DNA from: Actinoplanes sichuanensis
GTDB taxonomy: Bacteria; Actinomycetota; Actinomycetes; Mycobacteriales; Micromonosporaceae
Length of the DNA stretch: 64,000 nt
Assembly (NCBI RefSeq): GCF_033097365.1
Contig: NZ_AP028461.1
Coordinates: 1,736,001-1,800,000, forward strand
Reading direction: 5' to 3'
Part shown: piece after piece, positions 5,773 to 34,860 of the stretch
Layout: the number at the start of each line of letters is the position of its first letter
Position numbering within the stretch: the first letter of the stretch is position 1
Notes under the pieces: model-generated
Told to the model about the DNA's origin: nothing
The model's input: only the letters and a program-made list of their open reading frames with translations
The model's database searches: none
Made by a program: the position numbers and the translations under genes

Positions 5773-6576
5773 TCAGCCCAGCTGTTTCGGGCCGAGGTAG
5801 CTGCCGCCGGTGGCGTCGATGACGTTGGCGGTCAGCCAGGCGCTGTCCGGGCCGGCCAGGAACGCGACGACGCCGGCGATGTCGGCCGGGGTGCCGACCC
5901 GCTCCAGGGCCTGACTGCCCGCGATCATCGCCTGGGCCTCCGGCCGGTCGAAGAAGAACGCGGTCTTGTCGGTACGGGTGGGGCCCGGTGCGACCGTGTT
6001 GACGGTGATGCCCCGCGAGCCGATCTGGTTGGCGACGTTGCGGGTGAGAGTCGCGATCGCGGCCTTGGTCATCGCGTAGGCCAACTCGCCCGGCAGCGCG
6101 ATCCGGGTGACGCCGGAGCCGATGTTGATGATCCGGCCGCCGTCGCCCATCAGCGGCAGCGCCTTCTGGATGAGGAAGAACGGCGCCCGCACGTTCACCG
6201 CGAAGAGCCTGTCGAACGCCTGCGGGCTCTCGCTGTCGATGCCGCCGTCGGAGTCGCTGATGGCGGCGTTGTTGACCAGGATGTCGAGTCGCGCCTGCCC
6301 GGTGCGGGCCCGCAGCTCGGCCTCGACGGCCCGGATCACGGTGTCGGCGTCACCGTCGACGCCCAGCTCGGCGCGGACCGGGAAGGCCCGGCCGCCGGCC
6401 GCCTCGATGGTGTCGACGGTGTCCTTGGCGGCCGCGTCGTTGCTCGCGTAGTGCACCGCGACCAGGGCGCCGTCGGCGGCGAGGCGCTCGCAGATGCCCC
6501 GGCCGATGCCCCGGGATCCGCCGGTGACCAGCGCGGTCCGACCGGCAAGCAAACTGTTTATCGTGTAAGCAGTCAT
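5773..6576 (-). CDS. Short-chain dehydrogenase/reductase (SDR)
   Basis: 267 residues from the ATG at 6576; the frame continues to a TTG at 6612 but the promoter falls inside that extension. It has the classical SDR elements: cofactor motif TGGSRGIGRG, the NNAA motif, an active-site Ser in NIGSGVT, and catalytic YAMTK. The end, FLAGPDSAWLTANVIDATGG, is typical of 3-oxoacyl-ACP reductase-like SDRs. A good -35/-10 pair places transcription at or next to the ATG, so the mRNA is probably leaderless. The divergent TetR gene and the palindromes over the promoter suggest it is the TetR target. The substrate is unknown. Confidence 0.85.
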   Translation of the reverse strand: MTAYTINSLLAGRTALVTGGSRGIGRGICERLAADGALVAVHYASNDAAAKDTVDTIEAAGGRAFPVRAELGVDGDADTVIRAVEAELRARTGQARLDILVNNAAISDSDGGIDSESPQAFDRLFAVNVRAPFFLIQKALPLMGDGGRIINIGSGVTRIALPGELAYAMTKAAIATLTRNVANQIGSRGITVNTVAPGPTRTDKTAFFFDRPEAQAMIAGSQALERVGTPADIAGVVAFLAGPDSAWLTANVIDATGGSYLGPKQLG

Positions 6577-28688: not shown

Positions 28689-29228
28689 TCAGCGCTGTTC
28701 CTTCTCCCGGACCGGCAGCGAGGGCAGGCCGCGTTCGGCGCGGGCCCGATCGGTCAGTTCCTGGATGAGCGCGGTCTTCGCTCGTGCGTAGTCGCCGGGA
28801 TGCGTGCCCGCCTTCGCCAGGTTCCGCTTCAATTCGGCGTATCGTGCGGCCTCCCGCGGATGGGCTCGCAGATAGTCACGCAGGATTCGCTGATTGCGGG
28901 TCGGCCAGCTGTCCTCGGCCACCACGTGCAGGATGTGGGTCCGCCGGCCCCGCGCGAAGCGCACGTAGAGCAGGCGGTCGGTCATGCCGTTGGCGTGCCG
29001 CTGATAGCCGAGCTCGGCCAATGCGGGCGCGCGCCGGTCCACCTCGTCGAAGTCGGCCGCGGCGGCCATCAGGTCGATCGTCGGCTTGGCCGCCAAACCG
29101 GGGACGGCCGTCGAGCCGATGTGCTCGATCGCGGCCACGACGCCGTGCAGCACCGGGCGCAGCTCGGTGATCGCGGCAGCCGCCATGTCCGGCCACGCCG
29201 GGTCGTAATCGATCACTTCGATGCTCAT
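28689..29228 (-). CDS. GrpB-family (UPF0157) nucleotidyltransferase-like protein
   Basis: 179 residues. EVIDYDPAWPDMAAAAI at the start and IEHIGSTAVPGLAAKPTIDLM in the middle are the diagnostic GrpB blocks; the GS and downstream D-x-D-like acidic residues belong to a nucleotidyltransferase fold. Conserved HILHVV and LRDYLRAHPREAARYAELK follow. The biological role of GrpB proteins is unknown. The gene lies upstream of the PadR promoter and is transcribed in the same direction; no functional link is evident. Confidence 0.88.
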   Translation of the reverse strand: MSIEVIDYDPAWPDMAAAAITELRPVLHGVVAAIEHIGSTAVPGLAAKPTIDLMAAAADFDEVDRRAPALAELGYQRHANGMTDRLLYVRFARGRRTHILHVVAEDSWPTRNQRILRDYLRAHPREAARYAELKRNLAKAGTHPGDYARAKTALIQELTDRARAERGLPSLPVREKEQR

Positions 29229-29439
29229 GGAGGCATTGTCCGGCGATCCGCCGGCCGTGCCGCCACACCGGCGGCCGATGCTGTGCCGGGCGCGAAGCGC
29301 GATTGATCAGGCGAGGAGGGGTACGGATGAGTGGCCGGAGCGGACCGAGAGGGGGGACAGATCGAGCCGGGACCGAAGGACATGCGGGCAGGTCAGCCCG
29401 AGTGGACGTGCGAGCGGGTCAGCCCGAATGGACGTAAAA

Positions 29440-29552
29440 GCAGGTCGGACCGCTGGAGGCGGCACAGGTGGGACCGGGGATCTGCCAGCAGGTCGGACCG
29501 TTGGAGGTGGCACAGGTGGGACCGGGGACCTGCCAGCAGGTCGGACCGCTGG
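29440..29552. repeat. 48-bp tandem repeat after the siderophore ATPase gene
   Basis: Two full copies (29440-29487, 29488-29535) and the first ~17 bp of a third, each beginning GCAGGTCGGACCG. They lie in the 337-bp gap 29229-29565 just past the ATPase stop. On the minus strand a frame starting with TTG at 29569, which overlaps that stop (TTGA), runs through the repeats to 29393 and would encode 58 residues with a 16-residue repeat (QRSDLLAG-type). Whether it is translated is unclear; nothing else is seen in the gap. Confidence 0.75.
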
Positions 29553-29565
29553 ACGTGCGAGTGGG

Positions 29566-30378
29566 TCAAGCCCGAGCCGGATGGACGTGGTGGCGGCCGA
29601 TCGGGAGCATCAGGGGCTTGCCGGAGACGGGGTCCGTGATCACCCGACTGTCCAGGCCGAAGACCGCCCGTACGCAAGCCTCGGTCAGGACCTCGCCCGG
29701 CGTGCCCGCCGCGTGCAGGCCTCCGCCGGCCAGCGCGATCAGGTGGTCCGCGTAGCGGGCCGCCATGTTCAGGTCGTGCAGGACCATCACGATCGTGGTG
29801 CCACGGTTGGTGTTCAGGTCGGTGAGCAGGTCGAGGACCTCGATCTGGTGGCTGACGTCGAGGAAGGTGGTGGGCTCGTCGAGTAGCAGCACATCGGTTT
29901 GCTGAGCGAGAGCCATCGCGATCCACACGCGCTGGCGCTGTCCGCCGGAGAGTTCGTCGACGGAGCGGTCGGCCAGGTCGGCGGTGTGGGTGGCGTCGAG
30001 GGCCGCCGCCACCGCCCGGTCGTCGTCGCGGCTCCAGCGGGACAGGAGTCGCTGGTGTGGGTTACGGCCGCGGCCGACCAGGTCGGCGACGGTGATGCCT
30101 TCGGGGGCGATGGGTGACTGGGGGAGCAGGCCGAGAGTGCGTGCGAGTTCCTTGGCCGGCATCCGGTGGACCTCACGGCCGTCCAGGAGGACGTGGCCGG
30201 CGCGTGGTGCGAGCAGCCGTGACATCGAGCGGAGCAGCGTCGACTTGCCGCAGGCGTTCGCGCCGACGATGGCGGTGATGCGGCCGGGCGGTACGAGCAG
30301 GTCGAGGGACTCGATGACCTGACGATCGGCGTATCCGACCGTCAGGCGCTCCACCGTGAGCGTGTGGTCGCTGGTCAC
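29566..30378 (-). CDS. Iron-siderophore ABC transporter ATP-binding protein (FecE/FepC type)
   Basis: 270 residues, GTG start at 30378 with GGAGG six bases upstream. Walker A is GANACGKST, signature LSGGQRQRVWIAMALAQQTD, Walker B LLLDEPTTFLD, switch His VLHDLNMAARYADH, all typical of ferric-siderophore and haem importers. It belongs to the iron-box operon of binding protein, two permeases and this ATPase. Unusually, a repeat-encoded frame separates it from the permease gene, and its start overlaps that frame's stop by GTGA. Confidence 0.92.
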   Translation of the reverse strand: MTSDHTLTVERLTVGYADRQVIESLDLLVPPGRITAIVGANACGKSTLLRSMSRLLAPRAGHVLLDGREVHRMPAKELARTLGLLPQSPIAPEGITVADLVGRGRNPHQRLLSRWSRDDDRAVAAALDATHTADLADRSVDELSGGQRQRVWIAMALAQQTDVLLLDEPTTFLDVSHQIEVLDLLTDLNTNRGTTIVMVLHDLNMAARYADHLIALAGGGLHAAGTPGEVLTEACVRAVFGLDSRVITDPVSGKPLMLPIGRHHVHPARA

Positions 30379-30740
30379 AGGAGGCCTCCGGCGGATTCGG
30401 TGCGGGCGACCTCCGACGAGGCCGCCGCGGCGGGCGACGTGGCCCGGCGAGTGAATAGAGCGGCCGACCGACCTGGGGATCGGGGGCGGCGAGTGAGCAG
30501 GGCGGTCGACTGGCCGGAAGGTTGGGGTCGGCGAGTGAGCAGGGCGGTCGACTGGCCGGAAGGTTGGGGTCGGCGAGTGAGCAGGGCGGTCGACTGGCCG
30601 GAAGGTTGGGGTCGGCGAGTGAGCAGGGCGGTCGACCAGCCAGAAGGCACGGGTCGGCGAGTGAAGGCGATGCTCGGCCGGTGGGAGGGAACAGCCCGGT
30701 AGGTGAAAGGGCGACCCGCGGCGGAGAGGAGCACGTTCAC
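30375..30740 (-). CDS. Putative repeat protein translationally coupled inside the siderophore operon
   Basis: 121 codons. The GTG at 30740 overlaps the TGA of the upstream permease (GTGA), and the stop at 30377-30375 overlaps the GTG of the downstream ATPase (again GTGA). The middle consists of a 14-residue repeat (TALLTRRPQPSGQS and variants) in about five copies, from a 42-bp DNA repeat. The product is basic, Pro/Ser/Thr/Arg-rich, with no signal peptide or known domain. Two perfect 4-base couplings argue for translation, at least to carry ribosomes from permease to ATPase. The composition could equally reflect non-functional repeat DNA kept in frame. Confidence 0.45.
   Translation of the reverse strand: MNVLLSAAGRPFTYRAVPSHRPSIAFTRRPVPSGWSTALLTRRPQPSGQSTALLTRRPQPSGQSTALLTRRPQPSGQSTALLTRRPRSPGRSAALFTRRATSPAAAASSEVARTESAGGLL
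30447..30698. repeat. 42-bp tandem repeat, about six units
   Basis: Units begin with GCGAGTGA at 30447, 30489, 30531, 30573, 30615 and 30657, exactly 42 bp apart. The units from 30489, 30531 and 30573 are nearly identical; the outer ones are diverged, as in an array that grows in the middle. There are no unique spacers. It fills most of the gap between siderophore permease and ATPase genes. Confidence 0.92.
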
Positions 30741-31771
30741 AGGGAGCCGCCGGCGCGGTTGGTGCGGATCAAAAGGAAGATCAGGTACGGGGCGCCGAGC
30801 ACCCCGGTGATGACCCCGACCGGAAAGCGGGTGTCGAAAGCGAACTGCCCCAGGAAGTCCGCCGCCAGGACGAGCAGGGCCCCGACCAGGGCTGCCGGCA
30901 GGAGGAACGAGCCGCCCGGCCCGACCAGACGGGCGGCGATCGGTCCGGCCAGGAAGGCCACGAACGCGATCGGGCCGGTGGCCGACGTGGCGAAGGCGAT
31001 CAGACCGACCGCGGCGACGATGGCGATCAGGCGGGTTCGTTCCAGCCGGGTGCCGAGGGCCGCCGCCGTGTCGTCACCCAGTTGGAGCATGGTCAGGTTG
31101 CGGCCCTGGCCGAGGAGCACCGGCCCGAAGACGGCCAGTGCGAACAGGACCGGGACGACCTCGTCCCAGGTGGACCCGTTGAGACTGCCGTTGAGCCACC
31201 GGGTGGCCGCCTGGAGATCCCACTGCCCGGCCTGGTCGAGGATGTAGGACGTGGCGCTGTTGAGCATGGCCGCGATGCCGATGCCGATCAGGACGAGCCG
31301 GGTTCCGGCCACGCCGTCCTTGAACGACAGGACGTAGATGACGATGGCCACCCCGAGTGCGGCGACGATCGCGAAGACCGAGACCTCGCCGTCGCTGAGG
31401 TCGAGCACGATGATGCCGAACGAGGCCGCCGCTCCCGCCGCCGAGCTGATGCCGATGATGTCGGGGCTGGCCAGCGGATTGCGGAGCATCGTTTGGAAGG
31501 TCACCCCGCCGAGCCCGAAACACAGGCCGGTGAGCAGAGCGAGCACGGCCCGGGGCAGGCGCAGTTCCCCGACCGTGAACGACGCGCCGGGCACCGTCTC
31601 GCCGAGGATGACGGCGAGCACGTCGGCGGGTGGGTAGAAGGTCTGGCCGACCATCAGCGATACGGCGAAGATCGCGGACACCGCCACGGCCAGAACGGTC
31701 AGCACCGCCTGCCGCCGTCGCGCCCGCCGGACCCGGCCGCGGGTGACGGCCTCGAGGGTCGTGGTGCTCAC
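30737..31771 (-). CDS. Iron-siderophore ABC permease 2 (FecD/FepG type)
   Basis: 344 residues with about nine to ten membrane helices. The FecCD-family hallmarks are present: RLPRAVLALLTGLCFGLGG, TMLRNPLASPDIIGISSAAG and the late ATSATGPIAFVAFLAGPIA with FPVGVITGVLGAPYLIFLL. The GTG at 31771 overlaps the stop of permease 1 (GTGA). It pairs with permease 1 to form the channel for ferric siderophore entry. Confidence 0.92.
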   Translation of the reverse strand: MSTTTLEAVTRGRVRRARRRQAVLTVLAVAVSAIFAVSLMVGQTFYPPADVLAVILGETVPGASFTVGELRLPRAVLALLTGLCFGLGGVTFQTMLRNPLASPDIIGISSAAGAAASFGIIVLDLSDGEVSVFAIVAALGVAIVIYVLSFKDGVAGTRLVLIGIGIAAMLNSATSYILDQAGQWDLQAATRWLNGSLNGSTWDEVVPVLFALAVFGPVLLGQGRNLTMLQLGDDTAAALGTRLERTRLIAIVAAVGLIAFATSATGPIAFVAFLAGPIAARLVGPGGSFLLPAALVGALLVLAADFLGQFAFDTRFPVGVITGVLGAPYLIFLLIRTNRAGGSL

Positions 31772-32811
31772 AGCTCACGTACTTTCTGACGGCGGACGAT
31801 GTAGATGAAGAACGGCGCCCCGACCAGCGCGGTGATGATGCCGGCGGCGATCTCGTCGGGCCGGTTCACGACACGGCCGAGCACGTCGGCGGCGGTCAGC
31901 AGGGCGGCACCGGCCAGGGCGACGTACGGCAGCAGCCACCGATGGTCGAGCCCGACGAGCAGCCGGCACATGTGCGGGACGATCAGCCCGACGAACGCGA
32001 TCGGCCCGGCGACCGCGGTGGCCGCGCCGCACAGGACGACCGCGCCGAGGGCCGCGACCCCGCGGATCAGGGCGACCCGTTCACCGAGGCCGGCCGCGAG
32101 TTCGTCGCCGAGGGCCAGCGAGTTCAGCGGGCGGGCGCAGAGCAGGCAGACGATCAGCCCGGCGGTCAGGAACGGCAGGACCGTGGTGATGCTCTCCCAG
32201 CCGACGCCGCCGACTCCGCCGACCTGCCAGGACTGGAAGTTCTCGGCGATGTCGCCGCGCGGCAGCACCACCGCGACGACCAGGGAGGCGAGCGCGGCCG
32301 AGGTGGCCGCGCCGGCGAGAGCGATCTTGAGTGGGGTGGCGCCGCCGCGGCCGAGCGACCCGACCCCGTAGACGAACAGGGTGGAGACGGCGGCCCCGGC
32401 GATCGCGACCCAGATGTACTGGGTGGCGGTGGTCAGGCCGAACGTCACCATGGCGACCGCGATCGCCAGCATGGCGCCCATGTTGACGCCGAGGATGCCC
32501 GGGTCGGCGAGCGGATTGCGGGTGACGCCCTGCATGACCGCGCCGGACAGGGCGAGGGCGGCGCCGACGAGCACGGCGAGGACCGTACGCGGGATGCGTT
32601 TGACCACCGCCGCCTGGTTGAGCGTCTCGTCGGTCCCGCCGAACGCGGCGGTGATGTCGGCCCAGCCGACGATGCGGGAGCCGAAGGCGACCGAGGCGAG
32701 CATCACCAGGAGCAGCAGCGCGACGACGACGAGGAGCCAGGCCAGGCGCACCCGGGCCGGGCGCCGCACGGTGGCGACGTCCGGCCCGGACGGGATTTCC
32801 GTCTGCGTCAT
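31768..32811 (-). CDS. Iron-siderophore ABC permease 1 (FecC/FepD type)
   Basis: 347 residues. An N-terminal cytoplasmic stretch precedes the first helix (ARVRLAWLLVVVALLLLVML); the family blocks RIPRTVLAVLVGAALALSGA, VTRNPLADPGILGVNMGA and VAGPIAFVGLIVPHMCRLLVG (EAA-like ATPase contact) follow. The ATG overlaps the stop of the binding-protein gene by one base, so the operon is coupled throughout. It is regulated by the iron box upstream of the binding protein. Confidence 0.92.
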   Translation of the reverse strand: MTQTEIPSGPDVATVRRPARVRLAWLLVVVALLLLVMLASVAFGSRIVGWADITAAFGGTDETLNQAAVVKRIPRTVLAVLVGAALALSGAVMQGVTRNPLADPGILGVNMGAMLAIAVAMVTFGLTTATQYIWVAIAGAAVSTLFVYGVGSLGRGGATPLKIALAGAATSAALASLVVAVVLPRGDIAENFQSWQVGGVGGVGWESITTVLPFLTAGLIVCLLCARPLNSLALGDELAAGLGERVALIRGVAALGAVVLCGAATAVAGPIAFVGLIVPHMCRLLVGLDHRWLLPYVALAGAALLTAADVLGRVVNRPDEIAAGIITALVGAPFFIYIVRRQKVREL

Positions 32812-33848
32812 CAGAGCTTGTCGGCGGCCTTGCCGAGCAGGTCGACGTAGTCCTTGAGCACGAACGAGACGGCCAGCGGCGTCGGGTTGGCGGCGGTGGC
32901 GACCGGGGTGCTGCCGGGCAGCGACACGAACGAGCCGCGGGCGATGGCCGGGACCTTCGACAGCAGCGGGTCCTTCTGCAGGGCGCCCAGCATGGTGCCC
33001 TCGGCGTCGCCGTAGGTGACGATGATGTCGACGTCGCTGAGGTTCTGCACCTGCTCGGCGCTCTGCGTGAGACTGAACTCCGAGGTGGTGGCGGACGCCT
33101 TCTCGATGCTGGCCGGGTGCTTCATGCCGAGGTCGGTGAAGAACTGGGCGCGGGTGTCGTGCGTCGTGTAGAAGCTGATCTTGCTGAGGTCGGTCGGGTC
33201 GATGTGGGTCAGGAACATCACCGACTTGCCGGCCAGCTTCGGGTAACGCGCGGCCTCGTCCGTCATCTGCTTCTCGATGGTGGCGATCAGCGCGTCACCC
33301 TCGGTGGCCAGGCCGAGCGCTTTGCTCTCCAGTCGGATGCTCTCGCGCCACGACGTCGACCAGGCGGTCTTCGGGTACGCGACGACCGGTGCGATCTTGC
33401 TGAGGGTGTCGTAGTCCTGCTGGGTGAGCCCGGAGTAGGCGGCCAGGATGACGTCGGGCTTGGTGTTGGCGACACCTTCGAAGTCGATGCCGTCGGTCTC
33501 GTCGAACAGCACCGGGGTCGACGCGCCGAGTTCCTTGAGCTTGGCGGCGTCCCAGGGGAGCAGACCGTCGCCGTCCTCGTCGCCGAAGTTGGCCTTGGCG
33601 TAACCGACCGGGACGATGCCAAGGGCCAGCGGCACCTCGTGGTTGGCCCAGTTGACGGTGGCGACCCGCTCGGGCTTCTTCTCGATGGTGGTGCTGCCGA
33701 ACGCGTGGGTGATGGTGACCGGGAACGCGGCCGAGGCGGCGCCCGACGAAGCCGGTGCGGCCTTGTCGTCGGCGGACTCACCGCAAGCGGTGAGCGCGAG
33801 AGCGGTGGTTACGGCGATGATCCCGGCGAGGAATCGGGTGGCGCGCAT
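32811..33848 (-). CDS. Iron-siderophore substrate-binding lipoprotein (FepB/FecB type)
   Basis: 345 residues from the ATG at 33848. A lipoprotein signal ends in ALALTAC (Cys about residue 23), followed by a Ser/Ala linker and a class III binding fold: ITHAFGSTTIEKKPERVATVNW, KPDVILAAYSGLTQQDYDTLSKIAPVVAYP, and GDAEGTMLGALQKDPLLSKVPAIARGSFVSLP. It is the first gene of the importer operon, directly downstream of the iron box, so it is repressed when iron is plentiful. The siderophore (hydroxamate or other) cannot be told. Confidence 0.92.
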   Translation of the reverse strand: MRATRFLAGIIAVTTALALTACGESADDKAAPASSGAASAAFPVTITHAFGSTTIEKKPERVATVNWANHEVPLALGIVPVGYAKANFGDEDGDGLLPWDAAKLKELGASTPVLFDETDGIDFEGVANTKPDVILAAYSGLTQQDYDTLSKIAPVVAYPKTAWSTSWRESIRLESKALGLATEGDALIATIEKQMTDEAARYPKLAGKSVMFLTHIDPTDLSKISFYTTHDTRAQFFTDLGMKHPASIEKASATTSEFSLTQSAEQVQNLSDVDIIVTYGDAEGTMLGALQKDPLLSKVPAIARGSFVSLPGSTPVATAANPTPLAVSFVLKDYVDLLGKAADKL

Positions 33849-33873
33849 GCGAGGGGAACTCCACTTCACGGGG

Positions 33874-33892
33874 TAAGGAATGCCTAACCTAA
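33874..33892 (-). promoter_or_regulatory. Iron box (DtxR/IdeR/DmdR-type operator)
   Basis: On the minus strand the 19 bases read TTAGGTTAGGCATTCCTTA, matching the actinobacterial iron box consensus TTAGGTTAGGCTCACCTAA at 15 of 19 positions. It lies 26 bp upstream of the siderophore-binding-protein ATG, the usual place for repression by an iron-loaded DtxR-family protein. Confidence 0.9.
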
Positions 33893-33999
33893 CACCATGG
33901 TGGTGGCGTCGCATGATCAACCCGGCGCGGCGGTGCTGCTCAGAGCGGTACGCCGCCACGGCCGCTGCGCGGCCGCCGCGGCGGAGAAGGCCGGCCGGG

Positions 34000-34860
34000 C
34001 TACCCGGTGAACCGGCCGAGACGACGCCGTTCGGCCTCCATCAGTGCCACCTCGTCGACGCCTGCCACGACGATCCGTGGGTCGGGGGTGAAGTCCAGGT
34101 CGGCCGAGCGGTCCTTGTAGTCGACCGCGCCGAGGATGACCTTCATCGTGTTCAGTCGCGCGAGTTGCTTGTCGTTGGACCGGATGATCACCCACGGGGC
34201 GGGGCGGGTATCCGTACGTCTGAGCATCTCGTATTTGAAGTTGGTGAAGTCGTCCCATCGATCCTGAGCCTGGAGATCGATCTCGCTGAGTTTCCACTGG
34301 CGCAGCGGATCGGTGCGGCGCCGCTCGAACCGCCGGGCCTGCTCCGCCCTGGTGACGCTGAAGTAGAGCTTGACCAGGATGGTTCCCTGCCTGGTCAGGT
34401 CCTTTTCGAAGCCGGTGACGCCGCGCAGGAAGTTGTGGTACTCGTCGGCGGTGCAGAAGTCGAAGACCCGCTCCACCATCGCGCGGTTGTACCAGCTCCG
34501 GTCGAACAGGACGAGCTCGCCGCCGGTCGGGAACGCGGCCACGTAGCGCTGGAAATACCACTGTGAACGTTGTTCGGCGGTGGGCCGGCCGAGCGCGACC
34601 ACCCGGCAGTGTCGCTCGTTCATGTAGCGCGCGACCCGGCGGATGGCCCCGCCCTTGCCGGACGCGTCGCGCCCCTCGAAGAGCACGATCATCCGCAGGT
34701 TCTGCGCCTCCAGATGCTGCTGGAGTTTGAGCAGCTCGACCTGCCAGGGTCGGAGCATCCCCTCGGCGTCGAGGCGGCGCCGGAGCCGGTTGATCTCGAG
34801 CTTCGCCTGTTCGTATGCAGCGGCCAGATCCGGCGGCGCCGGTGGTGTCGTCTCGGCCAA
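34000..34860 (-). CDS. ppk2: Polyphosphate kinase 2 (PPK2)
   Basis: 286 residues. The start is a TTG at 34860 preceded by GGAGGAGG at six bases. PPK2 motifs: Walker A FEGRDASGKGGAI, then GRPTAEQRSQWYFQRYV, Walker B/lid LVLFDRSWYNRAMVERV, and the C-terminal block RRTDPLRQWKLSEIDLQA. PPK2 enzymes transfer phosphate between polyphosphate and nucleotides, usually to make ATP/GTP from di- or mono-phosphates. Length and motifs fit a one-domain PPK2, probably class I. It is monocistronic and divergent from the LuxR regulator. Confidence 0.93.
   Translation of the reverse strand: MAETTPPAPPDLAAAYEQAKLEINRLRRRLDAEGMLRPWQVELLKLQQHLEAQNLRMIVLFEGRDASGKGGAIRRVARYMNERHCRVVALGRPTAEQRSQWYFQRYVAAFPTGGELVLFDRSWYNRAMVERVFDFCTADEYHNFLRGVTGFEKDLTRQGTILVKLYFSVTRAEQARRFERRRTDPLRQWKLSEIDLQAQDRWDDFTNFKYEMLRRTDTRPAPWVIIRSNDKQLARLNTMKVILGAVDYKDRSADLDFTPDPRIVVAGVDEVALMEAERRRLGRFTG

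Follow-up and report, generated by a model that had tools for sequence, protein, structure and literature searches.

Among described systems, those closest to the locus studied here are the repeat regions found between genes of mycobacteria. In the excerpts of the published descriptions, MIRU repeats of 40-100 bp occur at 41 sites of the M. tuberculosis H37Rv genome (PMC2734929), and an internal MIRU frame is joined to the neighbour gene by a −4 spacing (PMC12548453, section 11); the excerpt of the latter account also says that MIRUs appear mobile. The rnc-fpg1 repeat region (ETR-F / VNTR3239) was given in the excerpted report as 358 bp in H37Rv and as 6-54 bp in the listed mycobacteria outside that complex, and fpg1 mRNA was higher with longer repeats among M. 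tuberculosis strains (PMC2734929, section 18 for the mRNA). The repeat region of senX3-regX3 was reported, in the part of the article at hand, to drive regX3 by itself (PMC4213456). In a literature search over titles and abstract openings, none of the matches listed described repeats at coupled gene junctions, whether in Actinoplanes or elsewhere outside the mycobacteria.

The window analysed here is a 64,000-nt stretch of DNA from the soil actinobacterium Actinoplanes sichuanensis (NZ_AP028461.1), and all coordinates given for this genome are positions within it. An operon read on the minus strand shows the complete gene order of a FecCD/FecE-type ABC transporter, with a binding protein, two permeases and an ATPase (Table 1), whose substrate, judging from the gene families, would be an iron-siderophore. 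The second permease and the ATPase are separated by a 362-nt insert. A sequence-only reading of this region had described the insert as a 121-codon frame overlapping both the permease and the ATPase by GTGA, with TCACAGG on the plus strand at both junctions, and the ORF coordinates and the sequence agree with it on these points. It had also placed 42-bp repeats between the two genes; the array is real (95% matches), but at 183 nt it makes up only about half of the insert, and no tandem repeat was called by TRF in the remaining half. Overall, its observation was confirmed and its interpretation partly supported. Further tandem repeats, with 26-bp and 48-bp units, lie at 29373-29553 just past the 3′ end of the ATPase gene, so this gene is flanked by arrays on both sides.

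Table 1. Features of the transporter operon and of the insert (positions within the window).
Feature	Position	Strand	Evidence
Substrate-binding protein, first operon gene as read here	32811..33959	-	Pfam PF01497 E 1.5e-27
FecCD-type permease, first	31768..32811	-	Pfam PF01032 E 6.8e-88
FecCD-type permease, second, C-terminus RTNRAGGSL*	30737..31771	-	Pfam PF01032 E 2.3e-74; ORF
Junction copy, upstream: protein end kept, GGCGG (30747-30751) replaces the Shine-Dalgarno GGAGG	30737..30766	-	Orthologue comparison; 23/30 nt equal to downstream copy
121-codon open frame of the insert, GTGA overlap at each end, judged non-coding	30375..30740	-	ORF, composition, homologue search
Tandem array, 42 bp x 4.4 copies	30482..30664	.	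TRF score 317; repeat search (family D1)
Junction copy, downstream: protein drifted (RTESAGGLL*), GGAGG kept (30385-30389), 6 nt before ATPase GTG	30375..30404	-	Sequence reading; match to upstream copy
FecE-type ABC ATPase	29566..30378	-	Pfam PF00005 E 8.8e-31; 94% identical to A. utahensis orthologue

The insert resembles the MIRUs in that repeats lie between operon genes and in that its 42-bp unit falls within the published 40-100 bp range; its frame with GTGA at both ends recalls the −4 spacing of MIRUs, a likeness of layout only, drawn from the excerpted descriptions. However, it is not dispersed. When 40 of the 175 candidates in its own genome were scored, one full copy and two weak matches, 31 and 42 nt long, were found, and the full insert DNA was found in none of the 66 other genomes of the genus (10 candidates scored per genome). 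Short partial matches were present in 37 of these 66 genomes, the longest among the matches listed being 93 nt. A dispersed repeat family was rejected on the single full copy, and we do not call the insert a MIRU because the layout is shared but the dispersal is not. The likeness to rnc-fpg1 consists in a lineage-specific repeat region between genes, whereas the excerpted text on that region (PMC2734929) mentions neither a start-stop overlap at both ends nor a duplicated junction. Arrays of the same kind are common in Actinoplanes: counting those with a period of at least 15 and a score of at least 90, 36 distinct arrays lay in 400 kb sampled from the A. sichuanensis genome, or 9.0 per 100 kb (about one every 11 kb), and two relatives gave 11.0 and 8.5 per 100 kb (200 kb each). 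What sets the array of the insert apart from the other minisatellites is its precise location at a conserved overlap of two genes, with apparent copies of this junction on either side.

Among the genomes of the genus, taken in its wide sense, those named here as A. utahensis, A. xinjiangensis, A. italicus, Symbioplanes lichenis and Actinoplanes sp. RD1 are identical to the records of these names over a 1600-nt core. To compare this junction across the genus, 67 genomes were examined, 24 of which, A. sichuanensis included, held a close permease orthologue (E 1e-120 or better); one genome has two, giving 24 other orthologous places. The results showed a plain start-stop overlap at 21 of these 24 places (GTGA at 20, ATGA at one) and the insert at none, which bears out the statement of the sequence-only reading that permease and ATPase normally abut. 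In-frame additions to the ATPase N-terminus were seen in A. xinjiangensis (36 nt) and A. italicus (108 nt, a 36-bp repeat). The A. italicus repeat (L058) lies at 6039-6156, and the permease of the same operon carries a 30-bp tandem duplication at 5847-5904. In Symbioplanes lichenis (L042/L059), a 35-bp tandem duplication of the junction has produced a 12-codon frame that overlaps both neighbours by GTGA, and Actinoplanes sp. RD1, a close relative with a 97% identical permease, has a plain junction. The S. lichenis junction is thus like that of A. sichuanensis in yielding, from a duplicated junction, a small frame bounded by GTGA on either side, but it differs in spanning only 35 bp, in keeping GGAGG in both copies and in having no array. 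On a tree of permease DNA, the nearest relative of A. sichuanensis is A. utahensis (SH-aLRT 90, below the 95 mark), and since A. utahensis has a plain junction, the insert probably arose on the own branch of A. sichuanensis. The terminal branch of A. sichuanensis on this tree (30737-31771) measures 0.17, more than twice the 0.069 of its nearest relative. Two further records stood out. One titled Vibrio cholerae strain 35D (L095) has a permease 71% identical to that of A. sichuanensis and a coupled ATPase, and is possibly a mislabelled or mixed contig. The permease of Pseudonocardia humida (L052) falls inside the Actinoplanes-Micromonospora set and its match is present on two contigs (L052, L053), which may reflect transfer or contamination.

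The 30 nt ending at each GTGA of the A. sichuanensis locus are equal at 23 positions (19 of the 26 before the GTGA), and none of the other offsets among the 337 tried along the insert matches as well as this 19/26, the next best reaching 16. The binomial p of this match is 1e-4; its level was reached by none of 20,000 shuffles, and among 65 control 30-mers that end in YTGTGA (from 400 kb) the highest count was 15, below the 19 seen here. When the Shine-Dalgarno region is set aside, the match comes to 14 of 20 nt (p 2e-3). It therefore appears, as had been proposed from the sequence, that an original GTGA junction was duplicated around the insert, although the likely duplication, at about 30 nt, is larger than the 7 nt named at first. 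Apart from a change of GGA to GGC, the upstream copy equals the end of the A. xinjiangensis permease, and the downstream copy retains the GGAGG in front of the ATPase start.

To relate this codon to coupling, 140 loci were compared, of which 138 gave a permease match; once 16 below 60% identity had been discarded and 21 duplicates combined with their counterparts, 101 remained. Pattern searches restricted to GGA or GGC had supplied twelve of these (10 coupled, 2 not), and seven of the 90 coupled loci have in-frame differences at the ATPase start. The codon completing GGAGG was GGA in 88/90 coupled orthologues, GGG in 2/90 and GGC in 0/90, and among the 11 uncoupled permeases, A. sichuanensis included, it was GGC in seven and GGA in four (L014, L042, L114, L162). 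With kinship ignored, GGC was associated with the uncoupled state at a Fisher p of 6e-7, or 5e-6 without A. sichuanensis. A kinship-aware test on six independent well-supported pairs found two to three in agreement, none in disagreement and three to four equal (sign test p 0.25-0.5). GGAGG was missing in six of the seven permeases without a visible downstream ATPase. Across 394 genomes of the class, the GGC form occurred in three, namely A. sichuanensis and two without an ATPase within the approximately 1500 bases examined, and the GGA form in 13, comprising 11 that are directly coupled, one with a gap and one in which no ATPase was seen; the other ATPase-less permeases were inspected over about 5 kb downstream. 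These results suggest that the start of the 121-codon frame has been released from selection, a release that is suggested rather than proven because the kinship-aware test has too few pairs for significance.

In composition and distribution, the 121-codon frame is unlike a gene. Its GC content by codon position is flat (0.69/0.73/0.75) and unlike that of the four operon genes (0.61-0.75 / 0.47-0.51 / 0.88-0.95), and the frame is absent from all 24 orthologous places in the genus. On its strand, each of the three frames runs for 120 codons or more without a stop; in a first-order Markov model of the insert sequence, a 119-codon frame stayed open in 49% of 20,000 trials, or in 66% when the repeat was counted once (72 codons left). 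That it nevertheless encodes a functional small repeat protein, as the sequence-only reading had suggested, is very unlikely. Although 121 open codons with a start and a stop overlapping the neighbours would agree with such a protein, and four of five other frames of this layout (the fifth, of 35 aa, being the exception) are gene-like in composition, no Pfam match was found for the frame, no homologue was detected at E 0.001 among 8000 scored candidates and none of the 66 other genus genomes held a full-length copy, and the small protein was rejected. The double overlap was likewise rejected as a rare sign, since spanning frames of this layout were found in 4 of 17 gaps of the A. sichuanensis genome in which a start overlaps the upstream stop and in 1 of 8 such gaps of two relatives (rough gene caller, 800 kb sampled from three genomes). 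The divisibility of the period by three is weak as evidence of selection, being found in 27 of 49 intergenic arrays (that of A. sichuanensis included) and in 23 of 24 coding ones, as summed over four samples with a rough gene caller and with arrays at sample edges excluded; the intergenic set is probably mixed because the gene caller misses genes. An alternative upstream start of the ATPase was considered and rejected: its frame is open through the insert, yet no ATG, GTG or TTG precedes 30378 in that frame.

A different role for the frame would be that of a translated relay, in which ribosomes that have finished the permease initiate again at the first GTGA, translate all 121 codons and arrive at the second GTGA, where the ATPase starts; the peptide would have no function of its own, and the repeat number could change with the relay intact. 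The overlaps are exact and in frame at both ends, the period is divisible by three, and the excerpted MIRU account describes frames coupled by −4 spacing to the gene at the insertion site (PMC12548453); against this, the first start lacks the GGAGG of 88/90 coupled orthologues (a difference that is not significant after kinship), a frame open by chance is expected at the rates modelled above, and the full GGAGG belongs to the ATPase itself. We therefore regard the relay as unlikely. The insert may also be a tunable spacer between the translation of permease and ATPase, as first proposed from the sequence; here too the missing GGAGG counts against it, the remaining two coupled orthologues having GGG, and selection is not needed to explain the stop-free frame. 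Considerably less probable than the relay is a regulatory spacer with a promoter or an RNA element for separate expression of the ATPase, for which the published excerpts provide precedents in the MIRU-bearing senX3-regX3 intergenic region, able to drive regX3 alone (PMC4213456), and in the rise of fpg1 mRNA with repeat length (PMC2734929). However, no sigma-70-like promoter or terminator was found in 29300-31000 and no Rfam match in 29200-34500, and the folding is no stronger than that of shuffles (z −0.56), so that no candidate of any of these kinds was obtained. An assembly artefact is scarcely credible: tandem arrays are prone to misassembly, but the genome is a single 12.1-Mb contig, the units of the array differ from one another and the flanks lie outside the array.

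Taken together, we consider it probable that the insert arose as a minisatellite specific to this lineage, which expanded within a start-stop junction that had been duplicated, and that the ATPase starts from its own retained site. Initially, some 30 nt of the permease end, with the Shine-Dalgarno sequence and the GTGA embedded in it, would have been duplicated; the sequence between the two copies would then have expanded, with amplification of the 42-bp unit; and the copies would finally have divided their old roles, the upstream one serving as the protein end and the downstream one as the ribosome-binding site. Neutral growth of the repeat with such a division of roles is the most likely account of the insert, and from this division it follows that the ATPase is most likely initiated at its own GGAGG, on what would be a shared transcript, and not by ribosomes terminating on the permease. 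The 121-codon frame would be a by-product of GC-rich sequence and of a period divisible by three. A comparable step is seen in the 35-bp junction duplication of S. lichenis beside the plain junction of Actinoplanes sp. RD1. Several points weigh against this account, namely the loss of significance of the codon test on correction for kinship, the GGA retained by four uncoupled permeases, the 14 of 20 nt that support the duplication once the Shine-Dalgarno region is left aside, and the length of the insert, which at 362 = 3n − 1 puts the frame exactly on the downstream TGA, a 1-in-3 chance. Reinitiation at a start-stop overlap may not require a Shine-Dalgarno sequence, and for this reason the 121-codon frame could still be translated.

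More generally, and only tentatively, start-stop junctions in which the final codons of one gene contain the Shine-Dalgarno sequence of the next might be recurrent birthplaces of minisatellites, at which the copies split their roles and the bridging frame is a side product, maybe a relay. The departures seen at this junction in the genus are the insert of A. sichuanensis, the duplication of S. lichenis and the in-frame lengthening of the ATPase in A. xinjiangensis and A. italicus. If this idea is true, coupled genes could be separated harmlessly, because one junction copy keeps the protein end and the other keeps the ribosome-binding site. For the annotation of GC-rich genomes, overlaps at both ends do little to show that an open frame is a gene, and the GGAGG in the last permease codons may serve as a simple sequence handle for judging coupling. 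The A. sichuanensis locus would represent a clear natural example of how overlapping operon genes part, in which the junction is duplicated and each copy keeps one job.
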